From the NCBI RefSeq assembly GCF_009687865.1, contig NZ_BLAE01000033.1:124001-188000 (forward strand): a stretch of DNA of 64,000 nucleotides. The letters run 5' to 3'. Source of the DNA: Acrocarpospora macrocephala (GTDB taxonomy: Bacteria; Actinomycetota; Actinomycetes; Streptosporangiales; Streptosporangiaceae). The translations under genes were made by a program, and so were the position numbers. Numbering within the stretch: the stretch's first letter is position 1; the number at the start of each line of letters is the position of its first letter. Under the pieces are notes generated by a model that was given only the letters and a program-made list of their open reading frames with translations, was not told the origin of the DNA and searched no databases. Positions 17,604-42,284 of this stretch are shown piece by piece.

Positions 17604-17633
17604 CAACTTCACGATCAGACTGGAGAATCCAGC

Positions 17634-18644: not shown

Positions 18645-19319
18645 ATGGCACGGACAGACTCGCCCCGAAATGTTCCACCGAACGATTTGGCGGACATGAT
18701 CAATGTCGCCGAGGTGTGCCAGGCTACCCGAGCGCTGGGGCCAGGGTTACGTGCCGTCGTCTGGGTGCAGGGATGTCCTTTCCGCTGCCGTGAGTGCGTC
18801 TCCCCGGAATGGCTGGAGTACCGTCCGGCGACCATGTTTCACCCCGGGGAACTCGCGCGCCGCCTGCTGTCACAACCCGATGTCACGGGATTCACCTTCT
18901 CCGGCGGAGAGCCGATGACACAGGCTAAAGGCCTCGCGGCGACAATTCGGACCGCCAGGCAGCAGCGGGACTTATCGCTGATCTGCTTCTCTGGTTACAC
19001 ATTGGCGGAACTTCACGGCGAGCGGCGACCGGACGGAGCCGAGGAGCTTCTCAGCGAAGTCGACGTCTTGATCGACGGCCGTTACCGGCCCGCCCTCAAC
19101 GACGGCAGAGGGTTGCGCGGCAGCGCCAATCAACGTGTTCACCATCTGACCCGGCGACTCCGCGACAGTGACTACGACTTCGAAGGGCGACCGCGCGAGG
19201 CGGAGATCCAGCTGAGCGATTCCGTGCTCCGGCTGGTCGGGGTCCCGCCGCTCGGGCTGCTGCCCGCGCTTGATCATGTGTGGCCCGCCCGGGTCGCACC
19301 GAACGAGGGAGATCGATGA
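18645..19319 (+). CDS. Radical-SAM / 4Fe-4S activating-enzyme-like protein (NrdG type)
   Basis: A 224-residue protein resembling activases of the NrdG/PflA group, which bind one [4Fe-4S] cluster and SAM. The cluster motif is GCPFRCREC (CxxxCxxC, Cys44, Cys48, Cys51), preceded by ALGPGLRAVVWVQ. A SAM-binding GGE motif follows in FTFSGGEPM (about 86-94), and then LICFSGYTLAEL. The length is that of the family. No anaerobic ribonucleotide reductase or glycyl-radical partner is nearby. I chose the ATG at 18645 with GGGGA just upstream; the ATG at 18696 (MINVAEV) would fit the family's usual start better and is a real alternative. It is the first gene of a chain joined by ATGA overlaps, so a modification or sensing role in that system is likely. 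Confidence 0.85.
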   Translation: MARTDSPRNVPPNDLADMINVAEVCQATRALGPGLRAVVWVQGCPFRCRECVSPEWLEYRPATMFHPGELARRLLSQPDVTGFTFSGGEPMTQAKGLAATIRTARQQRDLSLICFSGYTLAELHGERRPDGAEELLSEVDVLIDGRYRPALNDGRGLRGSANQRVHHLTRRLRDSDYDFEGRPREAEIQLSDSVLRLVGVPPLGLLPALDHVWPARVAPNEGDR

Positions 19320-20470
19320 GCGGCGACAAGCGGTACAGACTCCGGGAATCCGAGTGGGTGGGCCTGACCTCCAGCGTCGCGGGCCTGCAACGTTCCTACG
19401 ACACGTTGTCCCAGCGGGTGAGCGACCTGCGGGCCGAGACCCAACGGAAGATCAAAGCGGTGGAGACCCGGTTGCAGTCACAGATCAACGCGGTGCACGC
19501 CGAGTTCGACAAGCGCGTCGGGCGGGTCGAAGCCGACGTCCGCGAGATCAAGCAGGACAAGGCCAGAGCCGCCGCCGCGGCGGCCATCTGGATCGAAGGC
19601 GCGGTGAAGATTCGCGACGCGGTCGCGGGGCTGCCGCTGGAGCGGATCGCGACCGCCGACCTGACGCCGCTCAGCCAGCCCGACCACGCGCTCAGCCTGG
19701 CGAGGGAGAGCATCGCCACCAACTGGCCCGAAGCCGCCCTCTCCACCGCGCAGTCCGCATACCGGGAGCTGACCACGCTCCAGGTCAAGGCGGAGGCGCG
19801 GCTCGCCGAGTGGCAGGTGCAGCGCGAGGCCGCGCTGGACGCGCTCACCGCGGTGGCCACGTTCTGCCGGGAGAACGCCAGCTACCAGCTCAAAGACGAG
19901 CACGGTGCGCCGATCGGCGCGCCCTTCGAGGTCGACGGCTGGGTGGCTGGCACGTTCGGCAAACTCCGCGCGGCGGTCGACACGCTGCTGGCCGAGATCG
20001 CGGACGATCGCCGGGCTCCCGGCAGGGCCCGCCTGGACGCCATCCTCGCCAACGACATCCCCGAGCTGGGCACGACCGCACGTGACCTGGTGGAAACGGC
20101 CATCCGCCGGGTGGTGGCCGCCGAACGCCGGGCGGAGCGGATGGCCGACATCGCCGAGCAGCTGCTCACTCAGGGCTACGGCTACGTGGAAGGCGGCTTC
20201 GTCGACAACGACTACCAAGGGACATACGTCGGCATTCTGGAGAATGTGGCGGGTGACCGGATCGTGGTCTCGCTGGTGCCCGACGAGCATGATCCCAATT
20301 CCGTGGAAATGCTGCTGAACAGCTACGAGGACGGCAGCTCCGACGAGATCCGCATCCAGCGGGCCGAAGCGCTCGTCGAATACCTGAACGACCAGGGCAC
20401 CAGCGTCGAACGGCTGCCATCACGCGACGAGGGCACCGGCCGGCGCAGGCCAGAACCGGGTCTGGGCTAG
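19316..20470 (+). CDS. Coiled-coil protein of unknown function
   Basis: A 384-residue soluble protein with no family I can name. Residues about 15-95 form a long heptad-rich coiled coil (LRAETQRKIKAVETRLQSQ, FDKRVGRVEADVREIKQDKA), followed by a mostly helical middle and a small acidic C-terminal domain with VEGGFVDNDYQGTYVGIL and IVVSLVPDEHDP. The ATG overlaps the TGA of the radical-SAM gene, with GAGGGAG upstream. The coiled coil suggests an oligomeric scaffold or adaptor for the AAA+ ATPase encoded 6 bases downstream. Confidence 0.8.
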   Translation: MSGDKRYRLRESEWVGLTSSVAGLQRSYDTLSQRVSDLRAETQRKIKAVETRLQSQINAVHAEFDKRVGRVEADVREIKQDKARAAAAAAIWIEGAVKIRDAVAGLPLERIATADLTPLSQPDHALSLARESIATNWPEAALSTAQSAYRELTTLQVKAEARLAEWQVQREAALDALTAVATFCRENASYQLKDEHGAPIGAPFEVDGWVAGTFGKLRAAVDTLLAEIADDRRAPGRARLDAILANDIPELGTTARDLVETAIRRVVAAERRAERMADIAEQLLTQGYGYVEGGFVDNDYQGTYVGILENVAGDRIVVSLVPDEHDPNSVEMLLNSYEDGSSDEIRIQRAEALVEYLNDQGTSVERLPSRDEGTGRRRPEPGLG

Positions 20471-20476
20471 GCGCAG

Positions 20477-22288
20477 GTGGCAGCCTCGGTGAAGCCGTGG
20501 TCGACCGCCCGGCTGGCGAACGCGATCAACCTCGATTCGGGCGACGCCCTCTACATCCTGTGCGGCCCGGGCGTTCAGGATCGATTCGTCTGCGCCGACT
20601 ACCGGGAACGTTCCCTGGAGACCGCACTGTGGGAGCACTTGCGCGACTCCGGCTTCGAACGCGTCGCCTTCAGCCGCCACGGCGATCCGCTCTACTTCAT
20701 GGACGAGGCCTCGGCCGAGTCGGCCGTCCCCGGTGGCACAGCCTCCCGGGCCGGCCGCGCCGCCGCCGGTCAGTCCGGGCCGCTGGGCGGCGGTCTGCCA
20801 GGTGGTACGGCTTCCCGGGCCGGTCGTGATGCCGTCGGTCAGTCCGGACCGCTCGGCGGCGGTTTGTCGGGTAGTGCGGCTTCCCGGGCCGGCGTCGGTC
20901 AGTCCGGGCCGTTGGGTGGGGGTCTGCCGGCGAGATCGGCCCCGCCCCGCCGCCCGCCGCGCATGCTGGATCTGAGCCTGGTCCAGACGCTCAACGCCTT
21001 CATGCGGGACACGTCCGTGCGGAGCGCGGTCGTCATCCTGTGGACGGAGGACTATCTGCGGCACCTCCAGCCCGCGGCGCATCGGGAACTCGCCGACTAC
21101 CTGGGCGAGTGGGCGCGCAGCGCGGCCTCGCAGCGCAATGTCTGCGTCCTCGTCTTCGCCGCGCCCAATCTCACCGATGCCATCAGGAAAGTGGTCGATG
21201 TCCGCGACACCGATGTCCTGGTGTCATTCCTTGAGCGGCAGCGCGTACGCAGAGGCCGCCGGAGCGTCGGCACGGTCGGCCTCGCCGAGCGTTCGGAGAT
21301 GGCCAGGCTCGTGCAGGTGGCGCGGCTGCGCCATGGGCTCGCCGTGGACTGGCCGAACCTGGACCGCCTGATCGCGGCGATGGCGGCCCGGCCGGGAGAG
21401 ACCGTGCGGAACTGGCACGCCGCGCTGACCCGGATCGCCAGTCGAGGGGATGCGCTCACCGGCGAGATCCTCAAGGCGGAGCAGCTCATCGACGGCCTGC
21501 CGAGCGGCCTGAGTCCCTGGCAGGAACTCGACAAGCTGGTCGGCATGGAGCCGTTGCGGGAGCGGCTGGAGCTGTTCCGGGCCGTCGCCCGCGAGCCTGA
21601 CGGCGATTCGGCGGGACAGGCGGAGACGTTGCACCTGGCGTTCGTCGGCAATCCCGGCACCGGCAAGACCACCGCGGCCAGGCTCGTCGGCGAGATCTAC
21701 CGGGACTTCGGCCTGCTGGAACGCGGCCACCTCCATGCCGTGCGAGGCTCCGAGATCGTGGCGCCGTATCTCGGCAACACGGTGGCCATGACCGACGCGG
21801 CCGTGGACAACGCCCTCGACGGGGTGCTGTTCATCGACGAGGCGTACGCGATCGCGAACACCCGCGAATACGGTCCGGAGGCGATCAACGAGCTGGTGCT
21901 CCGAATGGAGGATGAACGGCATCGCCTTGCCGTGATCGTCGCGGGATACACCGAGGACATGAACATGTTCCTGGCCTCCAACGCCGGTCTCATCAGCCGG
22001 TTCAGCAGGCAGAACATCATCGAATTCCCCGACTACACGCCTGAGCAGCTGGTGGAGATCGCGCACGGCATGCTGGCCGAGCGCAATCTGACGATCTCTC
22101 CCGAGCTTGAGCCCCTCCTCGCCGAGCACATCCGCCGGATGTACGACCGCCGTAACCCGAAGACCTGGGGCAACGCCCGCGAGATGCGCGAGCTGGCCAG
22201 CCATCTGGCCGCGCGCTGGGCGTTGCGCACCAAGCGGAACCGGGCCGAGCCGTTGCGACCCGGAGACCTCCCGGAGGAGGCCGCATGA
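20477..22288 (+). CDS. CbxX/CfqX-type AAA+ ATPase with a repetitive linker
   Basis: A 603-residue protein. The N-terminal part (1-85) and the segment about 160-330 form an unrecognised domain, separated by a Gly/Ser/Arg-rich linker (86-151) made of three repeats. The C-terminal half is an AAA+ module of the CbxX/CfqX (Rubisco-activase-CbbX/EccA) type: Walker A GNPGTGKTTAARL near 391, Walker B GVLFIDEAYAI near 448, an arginine-finger segment SRFSRQNIIEFPDYTPEQL near 506, and a lid with NARE. Such ATPases thread or remodel proteins as hexamers. The start is GTG 6 bases after the preceding stop. The stop overlaps the next ATG. It is probably the motor or switch of the operon. Confidence 0.93.
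   Translation: MAASVKPWSTARLANAINLDSGDALYILCGPGVQDRFVCADYRERSLETALWEHLRDSGFERVAFSRHGDPLYFMDEASAESAVPGGTASRAGRAAAGQSGPLGGGLPGGTASRAGRDAVGQSGPLGGGLSGSAASRAGVGQSGPLGGGLPARSAPPRRPPRMLDLSLVQTLNAFMRDTSVRSAVVILWTEDYLRHLQPAAHRELADYLGEWARSAASQRNVCVLVFAAPNLTDAIRKVVDVRDTDVLVSFLERQRVRRGRRSVGTVGLAERSEMARLVQVARLRHGLAVDWPNLDRLIAAMAARPGETVRNWHAALTRIASRGDALTGEILKAEQLIDGLPSGLSPWQELDKLVGMEPLRERLELFRAVAREPDGDSAGQAETLHLAFVGNPGTGKTTAARLVGEIYRDFGLLERGHLHAVRGSEIVAPYLGNTVAMTDAAVDNALDGVLFIDEAYAIANTREYGPEAINELVLRMEDERHRLAVIVAGYTEDMNMFLASNAGLISRFSRQNIIEFPDYTPEQLVEIAHGMLAERNLTISPELEPLLAEHIRRMYDRRNPKTWGNAREMRELASHLAARWALRTKRNRAEPLRPGDLPEEAA
20732..20929 (+). repeat. Three in-frame tandem repeats (69, 69, 60 bp) in the AAA+ gene
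   Basis: Units lie at 20732-20800, 20801-20869 and 20870-20929. Each encodes a 23-residue (20 in the last) unit with the core ASRAG and GQSGPLGGGL. The third copy lacks three codons. The nucleotide copies are nearly identical over long stretches, so they are recent duplications that could vary in number between strains. They form a flexible linker between the N-terminal domain and the ATPase. Confidence 0.9.
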
Positions 22289-24168
22289 TGGTCGCCTGTC
22301 CGGTCTGCCGGTTTCCGAGCCCGCCCGCGACCGCGGCCGAGCTGGCTTGCGCCGAATGCGCGTGGCTTCTCACGGGGCCGTATCTGGCGGGGGAACCGTC
22401 CGAGGCCGAACTGGCCGCGTTCGAGGAGAAGCTGATCGGGGCGCGCAGGCAGCGTGACGTGCTTGCCGCGCAACGGGTGTTCCAGCTCTGCGAGATCACT
22501 GACGCGGACCTGGCTGAGGCGGTGATGGGCCAGGTCAGGGGCGGCCCTCCGGAAGACGACGAGTTGAGCCGCCTGGCCAGGTTGGCGTGGGCGGAGCTAC
22601 CGGCGGACGGCGGGCCCGCCCCGGCGGATACCTCCGGCGTCGCGGGCGTCGTCGCCGACCTGGCCGGTGGCGCCTTGAGCGCGGTGACCTTCGTGGAGCT
22701 CTCGCCTGACACGCTCTGTGGCGTTGACCTGGCAGTAGACGAGTTGGGGGCGGTGGGTCAGGTCACGCCCGGGTGGCAGCTGTCCTGGGCGGAGCTCGCG
22801 CCCGCTCTCCCGGCCGACGCGCCGATCCGGCACTTCTTCCTCGCGGGTGGAGTGGGCAACCTGCCCGCGATCGATGTCGACGCGCTGGGCGACCTGGCCG
22901 CCGAGCGGATCCCGGCCGGTTCCGGCCTGGTCCTGATCCAGCGCACTCCAGGCTGGCCCGTCCTGGAGGCGATCACCCGCAGGATCCGGCTCAAGCATCG
23001 TGTCCTGGCGGAGGTCCTGGCCGTTCCCCGGCCGTTTCCCGGGGTGCCGTTCGCGGAGACCATCCGGGAGATCGTCGCGCGCAGCCCGCTCCGGTACCCG
23101 TACCACCTCGTGGTGGCCCGCGCCGAGCCGGGCACCGGCGAGTACGACCCGGTCACGATCCGGCTCTTTCCCGCCGGGCAGCGCGGCAACGGCGAGGTCA
23201 GGACGGCGGAGGTCGACATTCTGACCCCGCCGGTTCCGGTGCCCGCCGTCACCCTGCCGATCGTGATCGCCCCGGCCGGCGATCCGGCCGGGTGGCGGCT
23301 CGTCCGGGCGGTGCGGGTGCCCGTACCCGCGCCCGACAGCCTGATGCGGGTACGCGTCGAGTTGCCGGAGCCCGGCCACCCCCGGGTGGTCGCCCCCAGC
23401 GAGCCCGTGGACGACCGGCGCGGCTGGGAGCAGCTGCGGCGCGCGTTGCCCCGCCGGCTGAGCGCACCCCGCGTGATCGACCTGGTCTGCGCGGTCGAAC
23501 TCGGCGGCAACTCCGGCGACGTCGTCGCCGCGCGGGTCACCCGGCTCGGTGACCTGGTGACGGCCGCGCTGGGCGATCACCCGGGCCGCGACGTCCTGAA
23601 GGTCGGCGTGCTGTCCTACGCCGACCACCCGCTCAGCCAGCGACGGCATCGGGGGCCGTCCACCGACCCGGTCGTCTCGGTCCCGCTCAGCGAACCTGCG
23701 GCGGCCATGAAGACCCTGCGAGGGCTCCGCGCGAGCTCGGGGGTGGCGCACGCGTACGCCACCGCTCTCGAGGACGCGCTGAAAGCGCTGACCACCTACC
23801 GGTGGCGGCCGGGCAGTCACCGGGTCGCGGTCTTCGCGGGCGCCAGACCCGCGCATCGCGCGGCGGGCAGCCCGGCCGACGGCGTGGCGAGCTGCCCGAT
23901 CGACTGGTCGGAACAGGTGCGGAAGCTGCGCGACCAGGGCGTCCGGTGTGTCGCGATCGTGGAGCCCACCCAATGGGAGGGCCTCTACGCGGCGGCCGCG
24001 ACCAGGCACGCCGATCGGGTCTGGGCGGCTCTTGCGGGCGACGCGGTGTTCGGGCCCGGCGATTTCGGCGCACCGGCCGCCCTGCACGCGGCGGGGTTGT
24101 CGCTCTCGGAGGCCGACCGGGGCTTCCCGTTCGCGCTCGCCGCGGGAAAGGAACATGATCATGGCTGA
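22285..24168 (+). CDS. Zinc-ribbon protein with a C-terminal degenerate vWA-like domain
   Basis: A 627-residue protein. Residues 5-25 hold two CxxC knuckles (CPVC and CAEC), a zinc ribbon. The middle is of unknown fold. From about residue 395 the sequence follows the strand pattern of a von Willebrand A domain (RVIDLVCAVELGGNSGDVVA, DVLKVGVLSYADHPL, GSHRVAVFAGARP), but the metal-binding DxSxS is replaced by ELGGN, so MIDAS chemistry is probably lost. Assignment to vWA is my inference from spacing. The ATG overlaps the ATPase stop, with GGAGGAGG upstream. It may be the adaptor that links the ATPase to the GTPase encoded next. Confidence 0.75.
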   Translation: MMVACPVCRFPSPPATAAELACAECAWLLTGPYLAGEPSEAELAAFEEKLIGARRQRDVLAAQRVFQLCEITDADLAEAVMGQVRGGPPEDDELSRLARLAWAELPADGGPAPADTSGVAGVVADLAGGALSAVTFVELSPDTLCGVDLAVDELGAVGQVTPGWQLSWAELAPALPADAPIRHFFLAGGVGNLPAIDVDALGDLAAERIPAGSGLVLIQRTPGWPVLEAITRRIRLKHRVLAEVLAVPRPFPGVPFAETIREIVARSPLRYPYHLVVARAEPGTGEYDPVTIRLFPAGQRGNGEVRTAEVDILTPPVPVPAVTLPIVIAPAGDPAGWRLVRAVRVPVPAPDSLMRVRVELPEPGHPRVVAPSEPVDDRRGWEQLRRALPRRLSAPRVIDLVCAVELGGNSGDVVAARVTRLGDLVTAALGDHPGRDVLKVGVLSYADHPLSQRRHRGPSTDPVVSVPLSEPAAAMKTLRGLRASSGVAHAYATALEDALKALTTYRWRPGSHRVAVFAGARPAHRAAGSPADGVASCPIDWSEQVRKLRDQGVRCVAIVEPTQWEGLYAAAATRHADRVWAALAGDAVFGPGDFGAPAALHAAGLSLSEADRGFPFALAAGKEHDHG

Positions 24169-25147
24169 TCCGGTCACGATCGGCTTGTGGGGCGCGCCTC
24201 GCAGCGGGAAATCGACGGTGTTGTCCTGTCTGCGCATCGCCGCGCACGCCCGCGGGTGGAGGATCAACGGGGTTGGCGCGGACGCGGCCGAAGCGGAGCG
24301 TTTTCTCGCCGAACACACGAACATGCTCGACCAGGATGGGTTGTTCCCCGAACCGACAGATATGGCGCGGCCGCTCAGCTGGGAATTCCACCCTCCCGCC
24401 GGACCTGGTTTCACCGTTTCGCTGCAGGACGTGCCCGGCGGCTGGTTCAAAGGCTCATCGATCGCCTCGGACTCGACGGCCTCAAACTCCTGGGACTCAG
24501 CCGCCAGCGTGAAGAGCACGCCCGGCGGGCCGACGATGACGCAGAAAGAGGTGGACGAAGCCCGGGACAAGTTCGTCGAACACCTCGCCGCGTGCAACGG
24601 GTTGCTCTACATCTACGATCCGGTTCGCGAAAGGGAGGTGGGTGATTCGTACACCTTCCTGCAGGAAACGCTGGGCCTCGTCGCGCAGAAGGTGGAATCT
24701 CAACGGCTGGTCGACGGCAGCAAGCTGCCCCACGCCGTCGCGGTGTGCGTGACCAAATTCGACGATCCGATCGTGTTCCACCAGGCCCGCAGGGGGATGT
24801 GGGGCACGCAGTCCGATGACGGCGACCGCATGCCGATCGTGAAGGATTCGCTGGCGCCGCTGTTCTTCGAGTGGCTGAGCCGCCAGCCCAACCAGGACAG
24901 CGCACGTAAGGTGCGGGAGGCCCTCGTGGCGCACTTCGACAACACAAGGATCGCCTATTTCGTCACCTCGGCGATCGGCTTCGCGCTCGACGAACATGGT
25001 GATTTCGATCCCTCCGACTTCGACAACATCACGCCCGCCTCCGACGGCCCGCCTCGGATCGCCGACCAGATTCGCCCGATCAACGTGCTTGAACCGTTCC
25101 TGTGGCTGGCTGAGCGGATCAGAGCCGGATCGCTAGGTGCGCCATGA
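24161..25147 (+). CDS. Small GTPase-like protein of a conflict-type system
   Basis: A 328-residue P-loop GTPase. Walker A is GAPRSGKST (residues 11-19), a switch II-like DVPGG is at 90-94, and the guanine-recognition motif TKFD is at 198-201. The region between DVPGG and residue 130 is a polar Ser/Ala insert. I chose the ATG at 24161, which has AAGGA 8 bases upstream and overlaps the preceding gene by 8 bases; an ATG two codons earlier is too close to the ribosome-binding site. The family resembles GTPases found next to GAP1-type proteins in NTP-dependent bacterial conflict operons, and the next gene is such a partner. Confidence 0.85.
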   Translation: MADPVTIGLWGAPRSGKSTVLSCLRIAAHARGWRINGVGADAAEAERFLAEHTNMLDQDGLFPEPTDMARPLSWEFHPPAGPGFTVSLQDVPGGWFKGSSIASDSTASNSWDSAASVKSTPGGPTMTQKEVDEARDKFVEHLAACNGLLYIYDPVREREVGDSYTFLQETLGLVAQKVESQRLVDGSKLPHAVAVCVTKFDDPIVFHQARRGMWGTQSDDGDRMPIVKDSLAPLFFEWLSRQPNQDSARKVREALVAHFDNTRIAYFVTSAIGFALDEHGDFDPSDFDNITPASDGPPRIADQIRPINVLEPFLWLAERIRAGSLGAP

Positions 25148-27405
25148 CCTCGGTGAACGCCGGCTGGGCGCTCTACACCAAGGTGCCCGGCGACTGGGAC
25201 GAGGCGAGCGTGCGCGCCAGTGGTGGGCCGGAGAGCCACGAGGGGCTCACCGCGCTGGTGCGCGCGGCCATGCCGGGCAAACCCCGGACGGCCGCCGGTG
25301 ACCAGCCGCAACTGCCCTGGGCGACCTTCTTCTGCTTCGAGGATGAGCACGAGTGGCTGAGCGTCTCGCTGCTGGAGTCGTCGAATGAAGTGGACGGGAC
25401 CAGGGCGCGCATCACTCCGGTGCGGTTCTACTGCATGCCGTACCAGGAGATCGCGCCGCTGCGCGCCGGATACGCCGGCTTGTACGCCGCCGTGGCGGCG
25501 GTGCCGCTGCCGTCGGCGGACGGCCCGCCGCTGACGCTGGTTCCGGAGCCGATGGATCTGGGGCGCGTCGCCCAGCTGATCGACGGCCTTGGTCTTCGCT
25601 GGGTCGCCTCGGTCGCGTCGATGCTGCTTGAGGCACGGGTGTGCGTCGTGGAGGGCGCGCAGGCCCGTACGCTCACGGAACGGCTCGACTGCCTGGACGC
25701 GATCGCCGCGCTGCTGCCCTACGGTTACCGGGCCCGCCTGAACGCCGCCGGGTGGACCGACAACGCCGTCCCGCATCGGATCCGCCTGTCGTTCAGCACC
25801 CGTCCGGGAAACGACATGGTTCCGGTCGAGCCCGGGTCGGACGGGGCCGAGCCCCAGGGGGAGCCCGCGCGCCGGTATCTCGCCGACCTGCTCGCCGCCG
25901 GGGAGGAGGCCGGCACCCTCGACATCGTCACCCACCTGGCCGATGACCGGCGGCCCTACGACCTCGCCGATCCGGCGGCGGCGCTGGCCGCCGTCCAGCT
26001 GCTCGGGCAGGTCACCCCCGTCCTGAGGTCCTATCGCAGCGGCGGGCGGCCCCGCGGGTGGGCGTCCCGCCTCCGGCCCGGCAGGGCGGCGAGCGGCGAT
26101 CGGGTGTCCCTGGCCCCCGATCTGGTCCGCGCGGCGATCCACTCCGGCGATCAGGAGGAGCGGGACCTGGTGGATCGCCACTGGGATGCCACCACCCACC
26201 AGCTCATCGCCGAGGCGATCGCGGACAGCCCGGAACTGCCGCTCCCCGCGTTCATCGACCTGGCGGACCGGCACGGGGACCTGGACCGGATGCTGGCGAT
26301 CGTCGTACGCCGGACCGCGAGCGTCGAGGTGCTGCTGAGCTGCGACGCCCCCGGCCCGCAAGCCCTGCCCCAGACCCGCGAGGCGGTGCTGGCGGGACCG
26401 GTCGACGCCCTGCTCGAACGGCTCGCCTTCGGCCAGGTGCCCAGGTCCGCCGCCTGGCTGTCGTGGCTGACCGCCGGGAACACACCCGGATGGCTGTCCC
26501 CGCTGCGCGGCCTCCGGACTCCCACCCCCACCGACGTGCGCGCCATGCTCGATCACGGCCCGGCTGGGCTGGTGCTCTTGATCGAGCGAACGCCGGACCT
26601 GCCCACGCTGCTCCCGGCGGTCTGGCCGTTGCTCATCCACCCAGCGGTCCTTCCGGAAACCGCCCGCGTCCGGATCGCCGGCATCTTCACCGCCAGAAGC
26701 GACAGGCCTTGGTGCGACCTGGCGCTCCTGGTTCTCGGCCGTACGCCCGTGCTCCCCGACCGGGTGGACCGGTCGTCGGCCGAGCAGTATCTGAACACGC
26801 TGACGGGCCTGTGGCACGACAAGGTCTTCGACGAGATCCGGCCGCGGCTGGCCGCCCAGCTGATCGACGAGTTACTCGCCCGCTCGGGGAAATGGGCCAA
26901 GGCGCTGCCCCACGTGACCGACGACGTCCTCCTGCGGGAGCTGGACAGCCGGGACAACACCGCCTGGCTCGACGATCCGAGCATCGACCCCTCGTATTGG
27001 AGCACGAAGGGCGCGTCTCTCGGCAAGTCTCATCGGAAGTGGCTGCGGAAGGCGCTCGGGCGCGATCCCGAACCGCTGGAGGCGGCGTCCCGCTGCGCGG
27101 AGGCGATCACCCATGGCATGCCGGAGACCGAGGTTCTCCCGTTGCTGGCCGCCTGGCCCCGGGTGAACCGGATGGAGGAACTCGACGAGCTTCTGTGGCG
27201 GCTGGCGTTCCAGCTGGACGCGGCGGCCTGGTGGGATCACTACATCCGGTTCGCCGACCTGGTGTGGTCGGGCGTGCTCGGCTCGGAGACGGCGACCGGC
27301 TACCTCGACTGGCTGCTGGCCAAGGCCCCGGGTGAGCTGGCGGACGCCGGGCGCAAGCTCCACTTCTACCATCAGGTCCTGCTCAGAGCGGCGGCGCGCG
27401 GATGA
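25144..27405 (+). CDS. GTPase-associated protein (GAP1-like), large
   Basis: A 753-residue protein resembling the GTPase-associated protein 1 group. An N-terminal domain begins GWALYTKVPGDWDEAS, with LPWATFFCFEDEHEWLSVSL near 60-79 and RFYCMPYQEIAPLRAGYAGL near 98-117. A middle segment has LLPYGYRARLNAAG and IRLSFSTRPG. A long alpha-helical C-terminal part follows. I know of no enzymatic motif in it; in other operons such proteins always accompany a GTPase. The ATG overlaps the TGA of the GTPase gene. The name rests on pattern similarity and context; a profile search would settle it. Confidence 0.7.
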   Translation: MTSVNAGWALYTKVPGDWDEASVRASGGPESHEGLTALVRAAMPGKPRTAAGDQPQLPWATFFCFEDEHEWLSVSLLESSNEVDGTRARITPVRFYCMPYQEIAPLRAGYAGLYAAVAAVPLPSADGPPLTLVPEPMDLGRVAQLIDGLGLRWVASVASMLLEARVCVVEGAQARTLTERLDCLDAIAALLPYGYRARLNAAGWTDNAVPHRIRLSFSTRPGNDMVPVEPGSDGAEPQGEPARRYLADLLAAGEEAGTLDIVTHLADDRRPYDLADPAAALAAVQLLGQVTPVLRSYRSGGRPRGWASRLRPGRAASGDRVSLAPDLVRAAIHSGDQEERDLVDRHWDATTHQLIAEAIADSPELPLPAFIDLADRHGDLDRMLAIVVRRTASVEVLLSCDAPGPQALPQTREAVLAGPVDALLERLAFGQVPRSAAWLSWLTAGNTPGWLSPLRGLRTPTPTDVRAMLDHGPAGLVLLIERTPDLPTLLPAVWPLLIHPAVLPETARVRIAGIFTARSDRPWCDLALLVLGRTPVLPDRVDRSSAEQYLNTLTGLWHDKVFDEIRPRLAAQLIDELLARSGKWAKALPHVTDDVLLRELDSRDNTAWLDDPSIDPSYWSTKGASLGKSHRKWLRKALGRDPEPLEAASRCAEAITHGMPETEVLPLLAAWPRVNRMEELDELLWRLAFQLDAAAWWDHYIRFADLVWSGVLGSETATGYLDWLLAKAPGELADAGRKLHFYHQVLLRAAARG

Positions 27406-28829
27406 ACCTCGGCGTGGATCTCGGCACCTCCTACACCAAGCTGGCCACCTGCTCCGGTGACCGGCGCGCGGAGGCCGTACGGCTGGAAGTGGCGGAGCCG
27501 GACGGCGTGATCCCGGTCGCGGTGGCGTACGGCGGCGGGGAGGCCGTCGTCGGCCGGTCCGCGTTCGCTGCGGTCACCCGCCCGGCCACGACGCTGCACG
27601 AGCACTTCACGCCGCGGCTCGACCGGGTGCCCGGCGGTTCACCCCCGGTCAGGACCCCGGCGGCGGTGACGCGCGACTACGTCGACGGGATCCTGCGTTC
27701 GGCGCGGACGAGCGGGACGATCCGCCGGCTGGACACCCTGGTGGTGGCGGTCCCGCCCCGATGGCTGGCCACCGGGCCTCCCGCCGAGCTGCTGCGCGTG
27801 ATCTTGACCGAGGATCTGGGCCTCAGCCGGGTGCGCCTCATCGGGCAGCACGTCGCCGCGGCCACCTACCTGGCCCAGCGCCACGAGGGCGGGCACCTGG
27901 TGCTCTGCGACGTCGGCGCCTGCCGCGTCACCGTGACCCTGTGCGCGGTCGACGGCCAGACCGTACGAGTGATCGACTCGACCGGAAGCGACGACGAGCA
28001 TCCGGCCGATCACGCCGGGCTGGAGATCGAGGCGGCGCTCGCCGACTCGGTCCCCCTGCGGCGGGCGCTCACCGACGCGCTCTACCACCGGCGCAGCCCC
28101 AGCTGGCTGGCCGAGGTCCTCGACGACCGGCACCAGCCGACACACGCGGACGTCGCGCTCTACGCCGACGACCACCACCGGGTGGAGGTCGCGCGGGCGC
28201 TGGCCGCGACCCGGCCGCTGATCGACCTCATCGGGCACACGATCGCCCGCTTCCGCGCCCGCAACCCCGGCCTCCAGCCGGGCGGCGCGTGGCGGCTGGC
28301 CGTGCTCGGCGGCGCCAGCCTGTTCCCGCCGGTGCGCGCGGCCGTGCACCAGGCCTTCGGCATCGCCACCGGCACCCGGCTCGGCCTGCTGCTCGACCTG
28401 TCGGCCGAGGAGGTCATGTACGCCACCGCGATGGGCGCCGCCTTCGTGGCCGAGGGCCTCGCGGAACCGGGCGACCGCTTCCCGCACCGCGTCACGCTGC
28501 CGGCCCGCCGCGTCCAGGACGGCCGGCTGCGGGCCGCCCACCTGATGGTCGCCGGGCCAGGCGAGCTGCGCGCGGGCGCCCTGGACCCGATGTTCGCGGC
28601 GGCCCCGATCAGGTTCCTCCCCGACGGCCTGCCCCTCCTGCTGGACGTGCATCGCGGCGACGAGCCCGAGCGGATCACCGTGCCCCATCACGCCCGTCCG
28701 GAGTCCGGCGATTTCGACGTCGGGCTCCTGATGGCCGGAGACGGGGTCCTCCACCTGGTCTTCAGGCCGATCGGCGACGCCCAGGACCGGCCACCGTATC
28801 CGCTCGGCGACCTACGGGAGAAAGCATGA
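27402..28829 (+). CDS. Hsp70/actin-fold ATPase-like protein
   Basis: A 475-residue protein with an Hsp70-like nucleotide-binding domain. Phosphate-1 motif: GVDLGTSYTKLA (residues 4-15). Phosphate-2 region: CDVGACRVTVTL (169-180), where DnaK has DLGGGTFD, so it is degenerate. Adenosine motif: VLGGASLFPPVR (about 305-316). The usual substrate-binding domain is absent; a beta-rich segment of about 100 residues ends the protein. The ATG overlaps the preceding TGA. The next gene encodes a coiled-coil protein that could act like a GrpE-type co-factor, which is inference. It is likely a nucleotide-state switch in the system rather than a general chaperone. Confidence 0.85.
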   Translation: MNLGVDLGTSYTKLATCSGDRRAEAVRLEVAEPDGVIPVAVAYGGGEAVVGRSAFAAVTRPATTLHEHFTPRLDRVPGGSPPVRTPAAVTRDYVDGILRSARTSGTIRRLDTLVVAVPPRWLATGPPAELLRVILTEDLGLSRVRLIGQHVAAATYLAQRHEGGHLVLCDVGACRVTVTLCAVDGQTVRVIDSTGSDDEHPADHAGLEIEAALADSVPLRRALTDALYHRRSPSWLAEVLDDRHQPTHADVALYADDHHRVEVARALAATRPLIDLIGHTIARFRARNPGLQPGGAWRLAVLGGASLFPPVRAAVHQAFGIATGTRLGLLLDLSAEEVMYATAMGAAFVAEGLAEPGDRFPHRVTLPARRVQDGRLRAAHLMVAGPGELRAGALDPMFAAAPIRFLPDGLPLLLDVHRGDEPERITVPHHARPESGDFDVGLLMAGDGVLHLVFRPIGDAQDRPPYPLGDLREKA

Positions 28830-29815
28830 CCCGCGACGAACTCAAATCCCTGCTGGCCGGCGAGGATCCGGACGCCGTGCCGCGCGTCCTGCACGCCACG
28901 CTGCGGTGGGTGACGCAGGTGATGGCGGAGACCGCGAGCCGCGACGAGACCGCCGCGATCCGCCTGATCCGGCAGCTGACCGACGCCCTGGAGCCGGTCG
29001 CGTCCTTCTCCGCCGCGCTGCCGGGCCTGGCGGACACGGCGTTCGCCGGGCGCACCGCCGTCGCGGCGATCTCCGAAGCCCAGGCCGACCTGGCCCAGGC
29101 GCGTGCCACCCTCGCCCATCTGGGCCAGGAGATGGACCGGCTGCGGCAGGTCAAGGAGGCGACGCTGGAACAGGCCGCCCAGGCCGAACGGCTGCGCGCC
29201 GAGGTCGCGGAGCACCAGCGCCTGCGCCAGCTCGCCAACGCGCTCCCCGGCCTCCTCGCCGCCAGGGACGCGCTCACCGCGTACCGGCTGGAGGAGGTCG
29301 AGAAAGCCGAGACGGAACTCGAATCGGCGGCGGGTGACTTCGCCGTGCGGGTGCTGCCTTACCTCGATGACCTGCGGGCGCGTACCCGCGACGCGATCGC
29401 CGAAGCCGATCAGCTCGCGGTGACGCTGGCGGGCCTGCGGCGCGAGCGGCGGGAGGCGCAGGACCGGTGCGGGGAGCTCGCCGCCGAGGTCGAGACCGAG
29501 CAGGCCGGGATCGACGACGCGTCCCAGCGGTACCAGCGGCTCAAGGACGAGCTGAGCCTCCTGCTGGAACCCCGGCGGCGCTACGCCGCCGCCGACCTCG
29601 CCGTCGTCAACGCGCTGACGAACGTGTCCGGCGCGGTCCCGGGCGTGGATCTGGTGCCGGGCGTCGACTCGGTGCGGCTGGCGCTGGAGAAGATCGACCA
29701 GGACCTGGCCGCCGTCGACGCCGACCTCGCCCGCGCGCTCGCCGAACACGAGAGCGTCTACGACGACGCCCATCGCGTCCGGCGGCTGAACGACGACAGG
29801 GAACCCCTCAGATGA
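28826..29815 (+). CDS. Coiled-coil protein, possible Hsp70 partner
   Basis: A 329-residue, almost fully helical protein. Two coiled-coil blocks are evident: about 85-145 (QADLAQARATLAHLGQEMD, LRAEVAEHQRLRQLA) and about 180-260 (LAGLRRERREAQDRCGELAA, QRYQRLKDELSLLL). No signal peptide or catalytic motif is seen. The ATG overlaps the TGA of the Hsp70-like gene, and its own TGA overlaps the ATG of the vWA gene. It could serve as nucleotide-exchange factor or scaffold, but I recognise no family. Confidence 0.8.
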   Translation: MTRDELKSLLAGEDPDAVPRVLHATLRWVTQVMAETASRDETAAIRLIRQLTDALEPVASFSAALPGLADTAFAGRTAVAAISEAQADLAQARATLAHLGQEMDRLRQVKEATLEQAAQAERLRAEVAEHQRLRQLANALPGLLAARDALTAYRLEEVEKAETELESAAGDFAVRVLPYLDDLRARTRDAIAEADQLAVTLAGLRRERREAQDRCGELAAEVETEQAGIDDASQRYQRLKDELSLLLEPRRRYAAADLAVVNALTNVSGAVPGVDLVPGVDSVRLALEKIDQDLAAVDADLARALAEHESVYDDAHRVRRLNDDREPLR

Positions 29816-31350
29816 GCGCGGCAGGCCGGTTACTCGCGACGCTCGCCCTGTGCGGGCTGCCGCTGCTGGGTGGTACGGCGGCGAGCGCGGACCCGTCATC
29901 CCTCTACGAGGCCATCGACGTGGACCAGCAGGTGCCCGCGCTCTACGTCGTCATGGTCGACGTGTCCGGATCGATGGCCCGCGACAACCTGTACGGCAGG
30001 GTCAAGGACGCCGTGACCGCGTTCGTCGGCGCGCTGGACCCGGCCGACCAGGTCTACGTGTTCGCCTTCGACCAGACGGCACGCCCGTGCGGCAGCGGCC
30101 CCCTGCCCGCCGAGCGGCGGGACGAGATCCTGCGCTGCCTGCCGCCTCCGCCGCCGACGGGCGCCGACACCAACCTGGGTCAGGCGCTGTACGAGGCCGT
30201 CGGCGTACTCGAGAAGAGCGCGGAACCGGTGGCCGCGCTCGTCCTGATCAGCGACGGCGAGCACGACCCGGCCGACGGGAGCAGGTATCCCCGGACGGGC
30301 ATCGCCACCGACCCGGACTGGTCCGATCTGGAAGACCGGGCCGCCGCCCTGACCAAGGTGACCGCGTACGCGATGGAGCTGCGGGCCAGCAACGGCGCGA
30401 CGACCCTCGGATACGTGTTCCCGCATCCGCAGATCCTGGAGGCCGGCAGCCCGGAACTGATCCGGCCCCTGCTCGACCGGCCCAAGGCCGACGCGCGGGC
30501 GGCGAAGGCGCGCCTCCTGCTGGTCCCCGACCTCGCCAAGGGCGCCTCCGTCCAGTGGCCGGCTGGGGAGCCGCGGCTGGACTACGCGGCGGGGCGGGCC
30601 GAGGTGAACCTGACCGTGACCTCGGAGGTAGGACACCTGCCGGTGCAACTGGAAGACCTGCGACTGGAGTCCACCGGCCTGCCGGTCAAGGCCGACGGCC
30701 TGCCGGAGCGGCTCGATCTCGCCGCCTGCCGGGACCAGCCGTGCCCGCTGCGCCTGCGGCTCAGCTGGGCCGCCCCGCCGGGCAGCCCGCCGCCGGGCGG
30801 CACGCTGCGGCTGACCGGCCGGGTGACGTCGCCGTTTGAGGCGGAGCTGCGGGAGATCGACGTCCCCCTGGACTCACCCCTGACCAGCGCGCCGGTCCGG
30901 TTCACGGTGACCGCTCCCGCGCCGGAATCGCGCGCGCCCGCGATCGCCGTCGCCATGGTGGCTACGCTGCTCCTGCTGGGGGCCGCGCTGGCGGCCGCCC
31001 TCTGGCTCCGGCGCAATCCCGCCCTGCGCGGCAGCCTCTCGGCGTCGATCGTGATCAACGACGAGGGCGGCACCAAGGACACGGGCGTAGCCCAGCTGTC
31101 CGGGCGGCGACACCGCCTCGCCTTGAATCTGCCCGGCAAGGGCACCGTGCACCTCGCGCAGGGCTGGTATGTGATCACCTACTCGCCGGACGGGTCCGAA
31201 CTCCGGACGGACACCGGCCGGTGCCCGCCCGGCGGCAGCGTCATCGTGAACGGGGTGCTGTTCCGGCATCGGCTCGCCGAGCACGACAAGGAGCGGTCCG
31301 GGGATTCCGGCCTCGGTGTGGACGAACCCGTACAGAGCGGGCAGTTCTGA
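29812..31350 (+). CDS. Exported, membrane-anchored von Willebrand A domain protein
   Basis: A 512-residue protein with a signal peptide (1-26, hydrophobic LLATLALCGLPLLG). An intact vWA domain follows, with MIDAS motif MVDVSGSMARD (Asp50, Ser52, Ser54), GADTNLGQ and LISDGEHDP. A beta-rich region leads to one transmembrane segment (about 377-403, VAMVATLLLLGAALAAALWL), and about 110 residues of beta-rich tail lie inside. The vWA domain should therefore sit outside the membrane, unlike the rest of the operon products. It might sense or bind an extracellular protein in a metal-dependent way. The ATG overlaps the preceding TGA. Confidence 0.9.
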   Translation: MSAAGRLLATLALCGLPLLGGTAASADPSSLYEAIDVDQQVPALYVVMVDVSGSMARDNLYGRVKDAVTAFVGALDPADQVYVFAFDQTARPCGSGPLPAERRDEILRCLPPPPPTGADTNLGQALYEAVGVLEKSAEPVAALVLISDGEHDPADGSRYPRTGIATDPDWSDLEDRAAALTKVTAYAMELRASNGATTLGYVFPHPQILEAGSPELIRPLLDRPKADARAAKARLLLVPDLAKGASVQWPAGEPRLDYAAGRAEVNLTVTSEVGHLPVQLEDLRLESTGLPVKADGLPERLDLAACRDQPCPLRLRLSWAAPPGSPPPGGTLRLTGRVTSPFEAELREIDVPLDSPLTSAPVRFTVTAPAPESRAPAIAVAMVATLLLLGAALAAALWLRRNPALRGSLSASIVINDEGGTKDTGVAQLSGRRHRLALNLPGKGTVHLAQGWYVITYSPDGSELRTDTGRCPPGGSVIVNGVLFRHRLAEHDKERSGDSGLGVDEPVQSGQF

Positions 31351-31366
31351 GGAGGGGAATCGACTC

Positions 31367-34300: not shown

Positions 34301-34594
34301 GAGGACCAGGACGTCGAAGGACTGTGCGTACGGCTCGCGCTGCACCGGGCCCGGGCCGTGCTGGCCTGCCGCTGGCCGGTGATCGCACCGCAGGCGATCG
34401 CCTTCGCCAACGAGGTGGTGGCCCAGTACCTCGCCCTCCGGCAGGAACCGGGCGACGCCACCCGGGCGAACCTGCGCGCGCGTGCGGTCAACGCCGCCCG
34501 CCGCCGTTTCCTCAAAGCAGACGGAACCCGGATGGAAGACGAAATCGTACGCCTCAATACGGTCGCCGCGTTCGAACTCTACGGGCTGGGATAA
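31367..34594 (+). CDS. CHAT-domain (caspase-like) protease with N-terminal helical repeats
   Basis: A 1075-residue protein. The N-terminal third carries six regular 57-residue helical repeats, and a long helical middle follows. The C terminus is a CHAT peptidase domain: catalytic His937 in TVCGHGSADGAGI and catalytic Cys970 in LILVSCSVGRL, followed by ARAVLACRWPV. CHAT proteases are caspase-like and serve as effectors in bacterial conflict and suicide systems. The start is GTG at 31367 with GGAGGGG 9 bases upstream, 16 bases after the vWA gene; upstream in-frame codons overlap that gene and lack a site. The repeats probably bind a partner or a trigger and keep the protease inactive. Confidence 0.92.
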   Translation: MLGLRSFTRSITMMRVLRKAGRLAMADEPDEALARLSTVARITDDDYGSERLAPKLAAYLDGLPDELSTTYVLMLSGALGMRRRTREALHVVEAFLGLERGDYADPAGLTRKLHLRLNPMAADLRASLVCTLFGSLGVLSRESESSALLGADLNLDPAAADRTADFEAKLIARLSGLSPDAALMYFNVVGMSLDGLGVGSAGVTALERYLDLRSADYESPERLAAKLQPWLGSLGSPITGLIALAGLAALLAEADAEERALALLEWYVGVEPADYQDPRELGRKWRTFCADHPEDIGPTTWRIWGGVLSGAGRFDDALALIEADSGLRLADLDDPGRFGPKLEHRLAQAQVDTRAAYLFSLVDDLTRIGHPDPATLIAEWFLRGYENFWRVPSAGDPGVVHVIPLLVRWLEAASLARPDLAWRFCEQGVLYLRHSLVMTEMQLADRREFIRYVERLRREVLQVGDRWSGQGPLSPADEAHALQAQLWDAELGQRLLFEGFLIASIEPIPRADAPEDRWPLAAAEPADLGTHLPDPAACREEDMFRLLRWRAARPAPAPPDPAVRAGDPAAEGWLREAESIVRGGVTESVLAATLGANGLLVRAGFRADQALVWAALRRRDGDDGVRVVAAGTGAPGDLWRLRWASFRHDMRLLMAATPLRLEVEGRVLSPAEMLIEVLAEALGTMTAALDRAAAADGAAADWLTGITPVLAELDGPKSTIAADEQLGSRLHTLLTGASPFTERDWLNATRTELGRLAAIVTRYRETRFASARAALDEIDDVTRSYLADVAEIWSLDQLTDRLRADDDLVFQLEDSLQSVPIAHYPLHGGAALHTRVRSTRISLSVLMTIMQGQLEESFETTADRILALSYFEPSLDAEDAASYAKWLHHGQRWLARRSAADPMTCLNAAEAPVGAAGSMRAALEAYQGFQTVTVCGHGSADGAGIELSDGLWQGDGCDWRAVNLLILVSCSVGRLTQTEDQDVEGLCVRLALHRARAVLACRWPVIAPQAIAFANEVVAQYLALRQEPGDATRANLRARAVNAARRRFLKADGTRMEDEIVRLNTVAAFELYGLG
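31499..32525 (+). repeat. Six degenerate repeats of about 171 bp in the CHAT gene
   Basis: The encoded motif has the form xDYxxPxxLxxKL and recurs at protein positions of about 45, 101, 158, 215, 273 and 330, that is every 56-58 residues. Examples: DDYGSERLAPKL, GDYADPAGLTRKL, ADYESPERLAAKL, ADYQDPRELGRKW, ADLDDPGRFGPKL; the third copy is the most divergent. The period is longer than a TPR (34) and I do not recognise the repeat family. Confidence 0.8.
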
Positions 34595-34599
34595 CAGAC

Positions 34600-35886
34600 A
34601 TGGAACCAGATGAATCCGGCCGGTTGACGCTGTTCTCCTTCGACCGGCACGGCGTGCTGCGCGACGAGCACGGCCTGCTGGGAAACGTGATCGCGGCCCT
34701 CCAGCGCACCACGAAACCGATCACCGACGTGTTCATTCTCAGCCACGGCTGGCTGAACGACCACGCCCAGGCCCAGGCCCTGTACGGCGACTGGATTCGC
34801 GCCATGGCCGACTATGCCCACGTCCGCCAGGCCGAGATCCAGGCGCGGCGCCCCGGATTCCGCCCGCTCCTGCTGGGCGTCCACTGGCCGAGCGCGCCCT
34901 GGGAGAACCCCCGCACACTCGTGTCGCTCGACCAGAAGGTGGCCTTCTTCACCGACCTCATCGGCGACCGGTCGGCCGCCGACGACCTGGGCCCGTTGCT
35001 CGAGGACGCCCAGGCGAACCCCGATCCCGACACGCTGTCGGCTCAGAACGAGGATCGGTTACACCGCATCGACGAGAAATCCGGCCTGCGCAAGGACCAG
35101 GTCGGCGCCCTGCCCGGCGACGACCGCGGCGACTTCGACGCCGGCCGGATCTTCGCCGATTACAAGCGCACCTGGCGCGACGCCGTCGGCGACGAGCCGT
35201 TGCGGTCGGCGCTGTCCCCGCTCTGGGTGACGAGCTTCTGGAAGATGAAACGCCGGGCCCTGGACGTCGGCGGGCTCGGCGTCCACACCCTGCTGAAGAC
35301 CCTGCAGGCGGCGGACGAATCACACCAGGTCCGCTTCCACCTGGCCGGGCACAGCTTCGGCGGGATCGTCATGTCCGCCGCCCTGCAAGGACCTCCCGGC
35401 GGCCAGCCGCTGGCCAGGCCCGCCCATTCGCTGGCTCTGCTCCAGGGCGCCCTGTCCCACTGGTCGTTCGCCCGCCGCATCCCCGACACCGAACGATCGG
35501 GCTATTTCCATCCCGTCATCGCCGCGAATCTGGTGTCCGGGCCGATGGTCGTCACCCGCTCGGCCCACGACCGGGCGCTCGGCTGGTTCTACCGCATGGC
35601 CGCCACGCTCACCCGGGACGTCCATCTGAACCGCCGGGCCAAACGTCTCCCCCACTACGGCGCGATCGGCACGTACGGGCTGGCGGGCCTGACGGACGCG
35701 CCCCTCGACCTGGTCGTCCGGCCGGGTCAGTTGCGCTACCGGCTGGAACCCGGCCGCCGCTACAACGTCGACGGCAGCGCGGTGATCGTCAGCAGTAGTT
35801 TCTCCGTCCAGGGCGGGCACTCCAACCTCGTCCACCCCGAGCTGGCCGCGGTCATCTGGGAGGCGGCGACCACCAAGCCGGCGTAG
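34600..35886 (+). CDS. Alpha/beta-fold serine hydrolase (lipase-like), last gene of the system
   Basis: A 428-residue hydrolase. The nucleophile elbow GHSFGG is centred on Ser252, an oxyanion-type motif ILSHGWLND lies near 46-54, and a histidine in QGGHSNLVHPEL near the C terminus could complete the triad. There is no signal peptide. A charged insert of about 80 residues (about 120-200) precedes the elbow. It may act on lipids or as a toxic esterase; substrate unknown. The ATG is 5 bases after the CHAT stop. In conflict systems a CHAT protease and a hydrolase often act as cleaved target and effector, so this could be the CHAT substrate; that is inference. Confidence 0.82.
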   Translation: MEPDESGRLTLFSFDRHGVLRDEHGLLGNVIAALQRTTKPITDVFILSHGWLNDHAQAQALYGDWIRAMADYAHVRQAEIQARRPGFRPLLLGVHWPSAPWENPRTLVSLDQKVAFFTDLIGDRSAADDLGPLLEDAQANPDPDTLSAQNEDRLHRIDEKSGLRKDQVGALPGDDRGDFDAGRIFADYKRTWRDAVGDEPLRSALSPLWVTSFWKMKRRALDVGGLGVHTLLKTLQAADESHQVRFHLAGHSFGGIVMSAALQGPPGGQPLARPAHSLALLQGALSHWSFARRIPDTERSGYFHPVIAANLVSGPMVVTRSAHDRALGWFYRMAATLTRDVHLNRRAKRLPHYGAIGTYGLAGLTDAPLDLVVRPGQLRYRLEPGRRYNVDGSAVIVSSSFSVQGGHSNLVHPELAAVIWEAATTKPA

Positions 35887-39068: not shown

Positions 39069-39071
39069 ACC

Positions 39072-41350: not shown

Positions 41351-41357
41351 GCCCGGC

Positions 41358-42263: not shown

Positions 42264-42284
42264 CCGCCTCCAGGAGGATCAGCC

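Follow-up and report, generated by a model that had tools for sequence, protein, structure and literature searches.

Among the predicted nucleoside triphosphate (NTP)-dependent conflict systems of bacteria, those centred on GTPases and their GAP1-type partners come closest to the locus considered here. In the text of Kaur et al. (2020; PMC7159879), GAP1-N2 systems are described with tubulin, HSP70/GrpE and kinase/PP2C/vWA themes, and DO-GTPase, Hsp70, kinase, vWA, caspase and alpha/beta-hydrolase parts can all be found there; in the VMAP systems of the same paper, a caspase domain is always accompanied by a neighbouring alpha/beta-hydrolase gene. The protection from phages by GTPase-centric conflict systems is a prediction in that paper, too, and the term 'radical-SAM' (S-adenosylmethionine) is confined in its text to the section that deals with VMAP and FtsH peptide processing (one further occurrence of 'radical SAM' could not be located), an association with GTPase systems not being described in that text. 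The window analysed here, i.e., the whole stretch of 64,000 nucleotides from the 12.1 Mb genome of Acrocarpospora macrocephala (contig NZ_BLAE01000033.1, positions 124,001 to 188,000), contains an operon of eleven contiguous + strand genes (g1 to g11, positions 18645/18696 to 35886) which combines parts of this kind with a radical-SAM enzyme. Because the GTPase encoded by g5 belongs, judging by its family alignments, to the DO-GTPase lineage, and because related gene sets occur in an operon with a true GAP1-N2 protein and on a cyanobacterial plasmid, the operon is interpreted, with a probability of about one half, as belonging to the GTPase-centric, NTP-dependent systems for conflict or stress response described by Kaur et al. 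(2020), of which it would be a divergent variant equipped with a radical-SAM enzyme. The kinship with computationally predicted NTP-dependent conflict systems having GTPases and GAP1-type partners, which an earlier note made from the sequence alone had proposed, was rightly seen.

With respect to its distribution, the radical-SAM gene g1 is the best-conserved component of the locus. At a threshold of 1e-25 (values given with matches are E-values unless stated otherwise), it has relatives in 25 of the 345 genomes searched from the order and in 5 of the 394 from the class, the genome of the window being included in both counts, and all 30 such places outside this genome (26 + 4) were compared. 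In 22 of them, g1 to g8 are complete, on one strand and in the same order, while four are truncated at contig ends (L048, L065, L069, L072) and four lack the core (L053, with the radical-SAM gene alone, L070, L071 and L100). The core occurs in five genera beyond that of the window and in two orders, L097-L099 belonging to a different order. As the profiles of g1 to g8 were built partly from the compared loci, self-matches are circular, which in part also holds for the g8 matches in 22 of the 22 complete loci; however, four loci contained in no profile (L056, L062, L064, L067) still match all eight core profiles, and L097-L099, contained in the g2 profile only, match all eight and an independent g2 profile as well. 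Stop-to-stop frames of neighbouring genes start in swapped order in L064, L067 and L098, where gene calls give the order g1 to g8; with a gene caller trained on the window, some starts were mis-called elsewhere (e.g., L050, L055, L056, L063). Variations comprise a doubled g2 in L098, a g7 split over two frames in L099, an extra short GAP1-like gene between g6 and g7 in L055, and a second GTPase-GAP1 unit beside the core in L098 and L099. With the GAP1-like protein as query, relatives were found in 8 of 60 related genomes, the own genome counted. The complete set of eleven genes is present in none of the 30 loci. Genes 1 to 8 thus form a conserved core, whereas the eleven genes are not one conserved unit, and the lack of synteny that the earlier note had itself named as grounds for giving up its proposal applies to the eleven-gene set and not to g1-g8.

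The GTPase g5 carries the motifs GAPRSGKS, DVPG and TKFD and a C-terminal RP..V.EP.LWL. The window protein alone shows no clear family match (best 0.012, below the cut-off), but as a family the predicted small GTPase is recovered, DO-GTPase2 being matched by 16 and DO-GTPase1 by 14 of 22 members (best 3.2e-6; nearest score to the cut-off 26.6 of 27 bits), and hhalign aligns the g5 family with the canonical DO-GTPases over the whole domain, including a common C-terminal RP..V..P.LWL (98.3%, 2.6e-14). In all 22 complete core loci the GTPase gene precedes g6, and the model of the g6 product (predicted local distance difference test, pLDDT, 84.3) has an alpha/beta N domain, a middle domain and an all-helical C-terminal part, i.e., the N/M/C layout of GAP1. 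Position and this three-part layout fit the proposed GAP1-like partner, whereas a weak match to the Pfam domain GAP1-M is given by 6 of the 25 proteins of the family (best 0.0034) and not by the window protein; GAP1-N2 and FNIII have no Pfam match among the window proteins, and neither the g4 nor the GAP1-like family has a match below 0.2 in the PDB by sequence. The top fold match of the g6 model is TagF of type VI secretion (9t0n, 4e-3, probability 1.00), with nothing below 1e-3; it was not used as proof of a GAP1 identity by fold, and the likeness of the model might possibly be a clue to the origin of GAP1. Elsewhere in the same genome (L085, G000:C23) there is a GAP1 system of canonical type, which includes an HSP70-like gene (GAP1-M 5.9e-22).

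Two gene sets connect the core to described systems. The operon L100 reads vWA-PP2C-kinase-radical SAM-coiled coil-ClpB-type AAA+-Hsp70-DO-GTPase2 (over the cut-off)-GAP1-N2/M/C, its radical-SAM protein being 42% identical to g1 and its GAP1-N2 domain matching at 7e-36; L070 contains vWA, kinase, radical-SAM, coiled-coil and ClpB-type AAA+ genes and no GTPase or GAP1 within the stretch read. The coiled coils of both loci were at first taken for g2 homologues from an alignment containing them, a relationship for which the independent g2 profile, which does not find them, gave no support. The second set, on a mobilizable Calothrix plasmid, comprises Hsp70 (Pfam 4e-12), a large TPR protein with what reads as an NB-ARC-like part, the radical-SAM gene, g2 (3.5e-68 with a profile not containing it), g3 (1e-221), a zinc-ribbon coiled coil and two divergently encoded GTPases, one of them over the DO-GTPase2 cut-off. 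Plasmid relatives of g3 amount to four records; besides Calothrix, records from Streptomyces and Bradyrhizobium were inspected, and their annotation is without core neighbours. A scan of genomic contigs with g3, covering 12 stretches, gave one relative, in Cytobacillus. A smaller relative of the locus (L026-L029, L032) joins DUF4407 (Pfam-confirmed in two of the five) and a kinase-like protein, so named from its sequence, to a g4-like vWA-GTPase-GAP1 set.

The radical-SAM protein g1 is 50-61% identical to 15 syntenic orthologues, whose N-termini agree with a start at 18696, an alternative earlier start lying at 18645. The enzyme NrdD is the substrate of NrdG. The description of g1 as radical-SAM activase-like holds for the radical-SAM fold (Fer4_12) and probably fails for the activase: its score remains under the NrdG cut-off (88 vs 126 bits), NrdD (NRDD, PF13597) was found in none of 14 carrier genomes examined, and a Gly_radical enzyme (PF01228) in only two of them (the own genome and G265) and on other contigs, E. 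coli being among the positive controls in both searches. With 12 of the 14 carriers devoid of a PF01228 enzyme, a glycyl-radical activase was rejected as a candidate, and g1 is probably not of this type. The earlier note had called the radical-SAM component unusual, which agrees with the text of Kaur et al. (PMC7159879), where it is confined to VMAP/FtsH peptide processing.

The gene after g1 is the coiled-coil gene g2 in all 22 complete loci, in three contig-cut loci out of four (L072 ends earlier) and on the Calothrix plasmid. The first five residues of g2, MSGxK, are conserved at 0.86 compared to a g2 mean of 0.53, with G at position 3 and K at position 5 each in 18 of 20 aligned proteins. 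On a viral contig, the protein next to a 51% identical g1 relative begins with MSGHK, but is not found by the g2 profile. Given that g2 follows g1, that MSGxK is conserved and that an MSGHK protein follows the viral-contig relative, g2 may be regarded as a candidate substrate of g1 via its N-terminus. In total, 20 loci on viral contigs have a g1 relative, and the seven scanned with the profiles matched only g1, apart from an AAA match (1.3e-10) in L132. On plasmids, g1 has relatives in 55 records (12 listed, four inspected). Plasmids of the two proteobacteria Polaromonas (L113) and Photobacterium (L115) carry a five-gene set AAA-PIN-hypothetical-AAA-radical SAM, and on a Paenarthrobacter plasmid (L114) a related radical-SAM gene has an AAA ATPase gene and a DUF2997 gene in its vicinity; since these relatives adjoin or sit near AAA ATPase genes, the partnership of radical-SAM and AAA+ proteins may extend beyond the g1-g8 family. 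At L053 (G003, the genus of the window), a 57-60% identical radical-SAM gene stands alone beside kinase, 802-aa dynamin-like and 1061-aa Hsp70-like genes, which, as named from their sequences, are a different NTPase set.

Amongst the other core proteins, the CbxX-type AAA+ protein g3 was confirmed by both AAA (1e-14) and SpoVK/CbbX-type matches; it has a Walker A motif GNPGTGKT and a Walker B motif LFIDEA, and a single AAA domain in the window and in L055 in contrast to two in the other 12 aligned relatives. For the proposed degenerate vWA of the zinc-ribbon protein g4, the support comes from the fold only: its AlphaFold2 model (pLDDT 85.5) matches integrin beta/vWF A domains in Foldseek (1.4e-7, probability 1.00, template modelling score 0.24 of the query), and the same model also matches DnaK (5.7e-6). 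In the case of g7 (475 aa), the Hsp70 likeness is sub-threshold for the protein alone (0.026), whereas a profile of 16 family members reaches the nucleotide-binding domain of DnaK at 7.8e-10; the profile matches span this domain only, so that the Hsp70-like ATPase of the earlier note persists without a substrate-binding domain.

In turn, the genes beside the core vary. The exported vWA protein g9, as predicted earlier, has a clear VWA_2 match; a g9-like vWA follows g8 in L055 (29%), and g9 is 34% identical to a vWA protein adjoining a second GTPase-GAP1 unit in L109. The CHAT match of g10, at 22.5 bits, is slightly under the Pfam cut-off of 24 bits, but the His-Cys dyad of the caspase-like fold (His937 and Cys970, numbering from the start at 31367) is invariant in three of three orthologues, and the 57-residue repeat is likely real, offsets of 57 and 114 scoring 49 and 47, where 49 was reached as single best score by 2 of 1000 shuffles. 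For the hydrolase g11, the Pfam match of the window protein reaches only 0.096 and a sequence search of the PDB gave no match, whereas the motif GHSFGG (Ser252; candidate Asp324 and His407) and an orthologue in G008 passing the cut-off (Abhydrolase_8, 2.5e-4) speak for the alpha/beta-hydrolase fold. It is 58 and 63% identical to the orthologues adjoining CHAT in G008 and G240, and the catalytic residues of g10 and g11 are retained across orthologues. Only these two genomes have orthologues of the pair among 249 genomes searched (four match including the own and a weak one); in G008 there is no core within 40 kb around the pair, and in G240 the pair lies at a contig end. Since core loci elsewhere carry other parts, and since the pair is found away from the core, the most fitting view of g10-g11 is that of a movable cassette outside the core.

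Of the 25 other cores with a visible upstream side (26 complete or cut cores minus L051, at a contig edge), 24 have a DUF4407 membrane gene no more than about 2.5 kb away from g1, always over the Pfam cut-off. The exceptions are L055 and the window: the genome of L055 (G305) has DUF4407 on other contigs, and that of the window has none over the cut-off. L055/L073 carries upstream a trypsin-like protein (Trypsin_2 1e-15, weak STAND and TPR matches) and downstream, besides the g9-like protein, Trypco1. L052/L074 has two CHAT proteins downstream (4e-27, 2e-39) in addition to DUF4407, and in L059 and L060 a CHAT-like C-terminus lies upstream of DUF4407, recognised from its likeness to the L052 protein and on visual inspection rather than through Pfam. 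The slots beside the core hence hold exchangeable parts, mostly DUF4407, but vWA and protease in the window and L055, and the CHAT and hydrolase genes occupy the effector place that the earlier note had given them.

The coordinates of the eleven genes are given in Table 1. Of the ten junctions, which had been thought to be nearly all ATGA overlaps, six have this 4-nt overlap (g1/g2, g3/g4, g5/g6, g6/g7, g7/g8, g8/g9), the others being a 6-nt gap (g2/g3), an 8- or 14-nt overlap (g4/g5), a 16-nt gap (g9/g10, the GTG start of g10 being preceded by GGAGG) and a 5-nt gap (g10/g11). Such short gaps and overlaps are compatible with a single transcript for all eleven contiguous same-strand genes, which were confirmed as such; a scan for promoters and terminators gave matches at chance level only.

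Table 1. The eleven genes of the operon (positions in the window)
Gene	Product	Position	Strand	Basis
g1	radical-SAM protein, NrdG-like single-cluster type	18696..19319	+	Fer4_12 E 4.1e-30; CxxxCxxC = CPFRCREC; SGGEPM
g2	coiled-coil protein, conserved N-terminus MSGxK	19316..20470	+	20-member alignment
g3	CbxX/SpoVK-type AAA+, family-specific N-terminal half	20477..22288	+	AAA 1.3e-14; TIGR02881 4e-55
g4	CxxC zinc ribbon and vWA-like fold without metal ion-dependent adhesion site (MIDAS)	22285..24168	+	alignment, AlphaFold2 model, Foldseek
g5	GTPase, DO-GTPase lineage	24155..25147	+	alignment; DO-GTPase2 family matches; hhalign
g6	GAP1-like partner	25144..27405	+	position after GTPase; weak GAP1-M in family; model
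g7	Hsp70/actin-like ATPase domain, no substrate-binding domain	27402..28829	+	family profile to DnaK; alignment
g8	coiled-coil protein, final conserved-core gene	28826..29815	+	alignment; profile matches
g9	exported vWA protein, intact MIDAS (DVSGSM), accessory	29812..31350	+	VWA_2 3.5e-11
g10	CHAT (caspase-like) protease at the C-terminus, preceded by helical repeats of 57 residues	31367..34594	+	CHAT 9e-5; orthologues; repeats
g11	alpha/beta-hydrolase, GHSFGG	34600..35886	+	orthologues beside CHAT in G008, G240

A possible mechanism, each step of which is less certain than the assignment to the class, would be as follows. The coiled coil g2 and the AAA+ protein g3 would form a chaperone-like machine, which g1 would arm by modifying g2, most likely at its MSGxK N-terminus, while g5 with g6, and g7 with g4 and g8, would keep the complex inactive in a nucleotide-dependent manner. 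A trigger, perhaps envelope damage or infection sensed via the exported g9, would flip the switch, and in this genome the output would be the CHAT protease g10, cutting and so freeing g11 (likely a lipase or esterase) and acting on other targets, with dormancy or death as the end result. The earlier note put forward too firmly that the three NTPases release g10 and g11; such a nucleotide-threshold switch is, like defence itself, a hypothesis. In its boldest form, which we consider rather improbable, the radical-SAM enzyme would arm the AAA+/GTPase/Hsp70 switch via MSGxK throughout a family of self-restraint systems that spans phyla and in which the outputs (CHAT and lipase, trypsin and Trypco1, STAND/TPR, DUF4407) would be swapped like cartridges. 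The locus couples a radical-SAM enzyme to GTPase/Hsp70/AAA+ switches in Actinomycetota and on one cyanobacterial plasmid, and candidate substrates can be named, namely the g2 N-terminus and, for CHAT, g11. If true, protein modification by radicals would be one more way in which bacterial programmed-death or stress systems are regulated, and the protease/hydrolase outputs of such systems would be exchangeable cassettes.

Several observations, however, weigh against this interpretation. The hhalign match between g5 and the DO-GTPases was made without an unrelated-GTPase control, and the typical Walker B glutamate, taken here as the residue after DxxG as in the canonical DTAGE, is apparently a glycine in the window (DVPGG), most of the 22 aligned proteins being without E and L055 having DLPGE. 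For g6, hhalign against canonical GAP1 gives a probability of 0.4%, and an FNIII protein was not seen among the window proteins. The link to L100 and L070 consists of the radical-SAM gene and the gene order only, because their coiled coils are missed by the independent g2 profile; the role of g2 as substrate is based on sequence conservation alone, and a second stretch of the protein is just as well conserved (0.88). Orthologues of g10-g11 occur in none of the 30 other loci, and relatives of g5 are absent from 50,697 phage records, which says nothing for defence. To our knowledge, there is no phage or stress phenotype for any member.

Instead of a defence system, the same core could be a complex resident in filamentous actinomycetes and serving envelope stress, development or morphogenesis, in which AAA+, GTPase, Hsp70 and vWA proteins build and dismantle a membrane-linked structure together with DUF4407, CHAT and hydrolase being a regulatory protease and a lipase added in this strain. 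This is a serious rival, even if on balance unlikely. In line with it, the DUF4407 membrane gene flanks g1 in nearly all visible cores, 18 of the 25 carrier genomes of the order belong to one genus (g64; the count covers carriers), and in six loci of one genus (L061, L063, L064, L066-L068) one and the same gene follows the core, which would fit a resident function passed on vertically and is a further point against a conflict system. Moreover, a DO-GTPase is named a predicted membrane-stress protein in the text of PMC11237479, and membrane proximity is stressed for GAP1-N2 systems in that of Kaur et al. (2020; PMC7159879). However, the patchy distribution of the radical-SAM gene within order and class, the variation of the neighbours among CHAT, trypsin/Trypco1 and DUF4407, and the related module on a mobilizable plasmid argue otherwise. 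That g10-g11 is an independent two-gene CHAT/hydrolase cassette, landed behind g9 without functional coupling to the core, would explain the pair without surrounding core in G008 and at the contig end in G240, but appears doubtful in view of its close spacing behind g9 (16 and 5 nt) and of the CHAT proteins flanking the core in L052/L074, L059 and L060 and the trypsin-like and Trypco1 proteins in L055. Very improbable is a peptide natural-product cluster within a biosynthetic region, with g1, g2 and g3 making a modified peptide and the rest serving immunity or regulation: it would be suited by the lack of a glycyl-radical partner for g1 in most carrier genomes and by the flanks, where a large multidomain protein of biosynthetic appearance and genes resembling those of the methionine/SAM cycle are found. 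Yet the called core genes comprise neither a short precursor nor a transporter, g2 is a 384-aa coiled coil, no SPASM-type match was found, and synteny of the core is kept in 22 loci whose flanks differ.

By its GC and gene content, the DNA is that of an actinomycete. As to the surroundings of the operon, the directly upstream stretch (16000-18600) has a low GC content (0.62 in 16001-20000 vs about 0.72) and contains frames of 480 and 135 aa with no Pfam match; it is perhaps a recent insertion. Directly downstream (36107-43277) lies a C1/methionine-SAM cycle set with a methylenetetrahydrofolate reductase (MTHFR) C-terminal protein, MTHFR, methyltransferase-like protein and PfkB kinase, as well as methionine-synthase-like and SAM-synthetase-like proteins, both named from sequence. 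A large protein at 1842-7292 resembles, likewise by its sequence, a polyketide synthase/non-ribosomal peptide synthetase subunit, and BTAD/NB-ARC and BTAD/AAA regulators lie at 9839-11731 and 44837-48043.

The statement of the earlier note that it knew of no system with this set has to be narrowed, as relatives exist and parts are described in the text of Kaur et al. (2020; PMC7159879), while the complete set was not found described: a literature search of text without figures or supplements yielded no description of it. PADLOC models (ten of the eleven proteins, g2 left out) gave only weak matches (pVip 0.008, IetA 1e-5 on the AAA part, coiled coils to JetC/LmuB). With the NrdG/PflA activases, g1 has in common the Fer4_12 single-cluster radical-SAM fold and CxxxCxxC, but it scores below the NrdG cut-off, and its carriers lack NrdD (14 of 14) and mostly a PF01228 enzyme (12 of 14). 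The VMAP MoxR-vWA ternary systems, as presented in the text of Kaur et al. (2020), share with the window and its relatives an AAA+ protein with vWA, in some cases radical SAM, and a caspase-type protease with alpha/beta-hydrolase or trypsin with Trypco1; in the window, however, the AAA+ protein is CbxX and not MoxR, the radical-SAM protein is NrdG-like and not SPASM-fused, and none of the eleven proteins has a VMAP-type Pfam match. The L100 operon, a GAP1-N2 kinase theme with radical SAM, shares the radical-SAM gene followed by coiled coil and AAA+, as well as Hsp70, GTPase and a GAP1-type or GAP1-like partner, but has a ClpB-type instead of CbxX-type AAA+, a kinase, PP2C, a true GAP1-N2 and a coiled coil not detectably homologous to g2. 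Compared to the GAP1-N2 HSP70 theme in the text of Kaur et al. (2020; PMC7159879), the window is without detectable GAP1-N2, FNIII or GrpE, bears its zinc ribbon on the vWA protein and not on the GTPase, has a glycine at the canonical DTAGE glutamate and adds the radical-SAM-g2-AAA+ module; it shares with this theme a DO-lineage GTPase followed by a GAP1-like protein, a zinc ribbon, an Hsp70, including the form without substrate-binding domain, and variable components.

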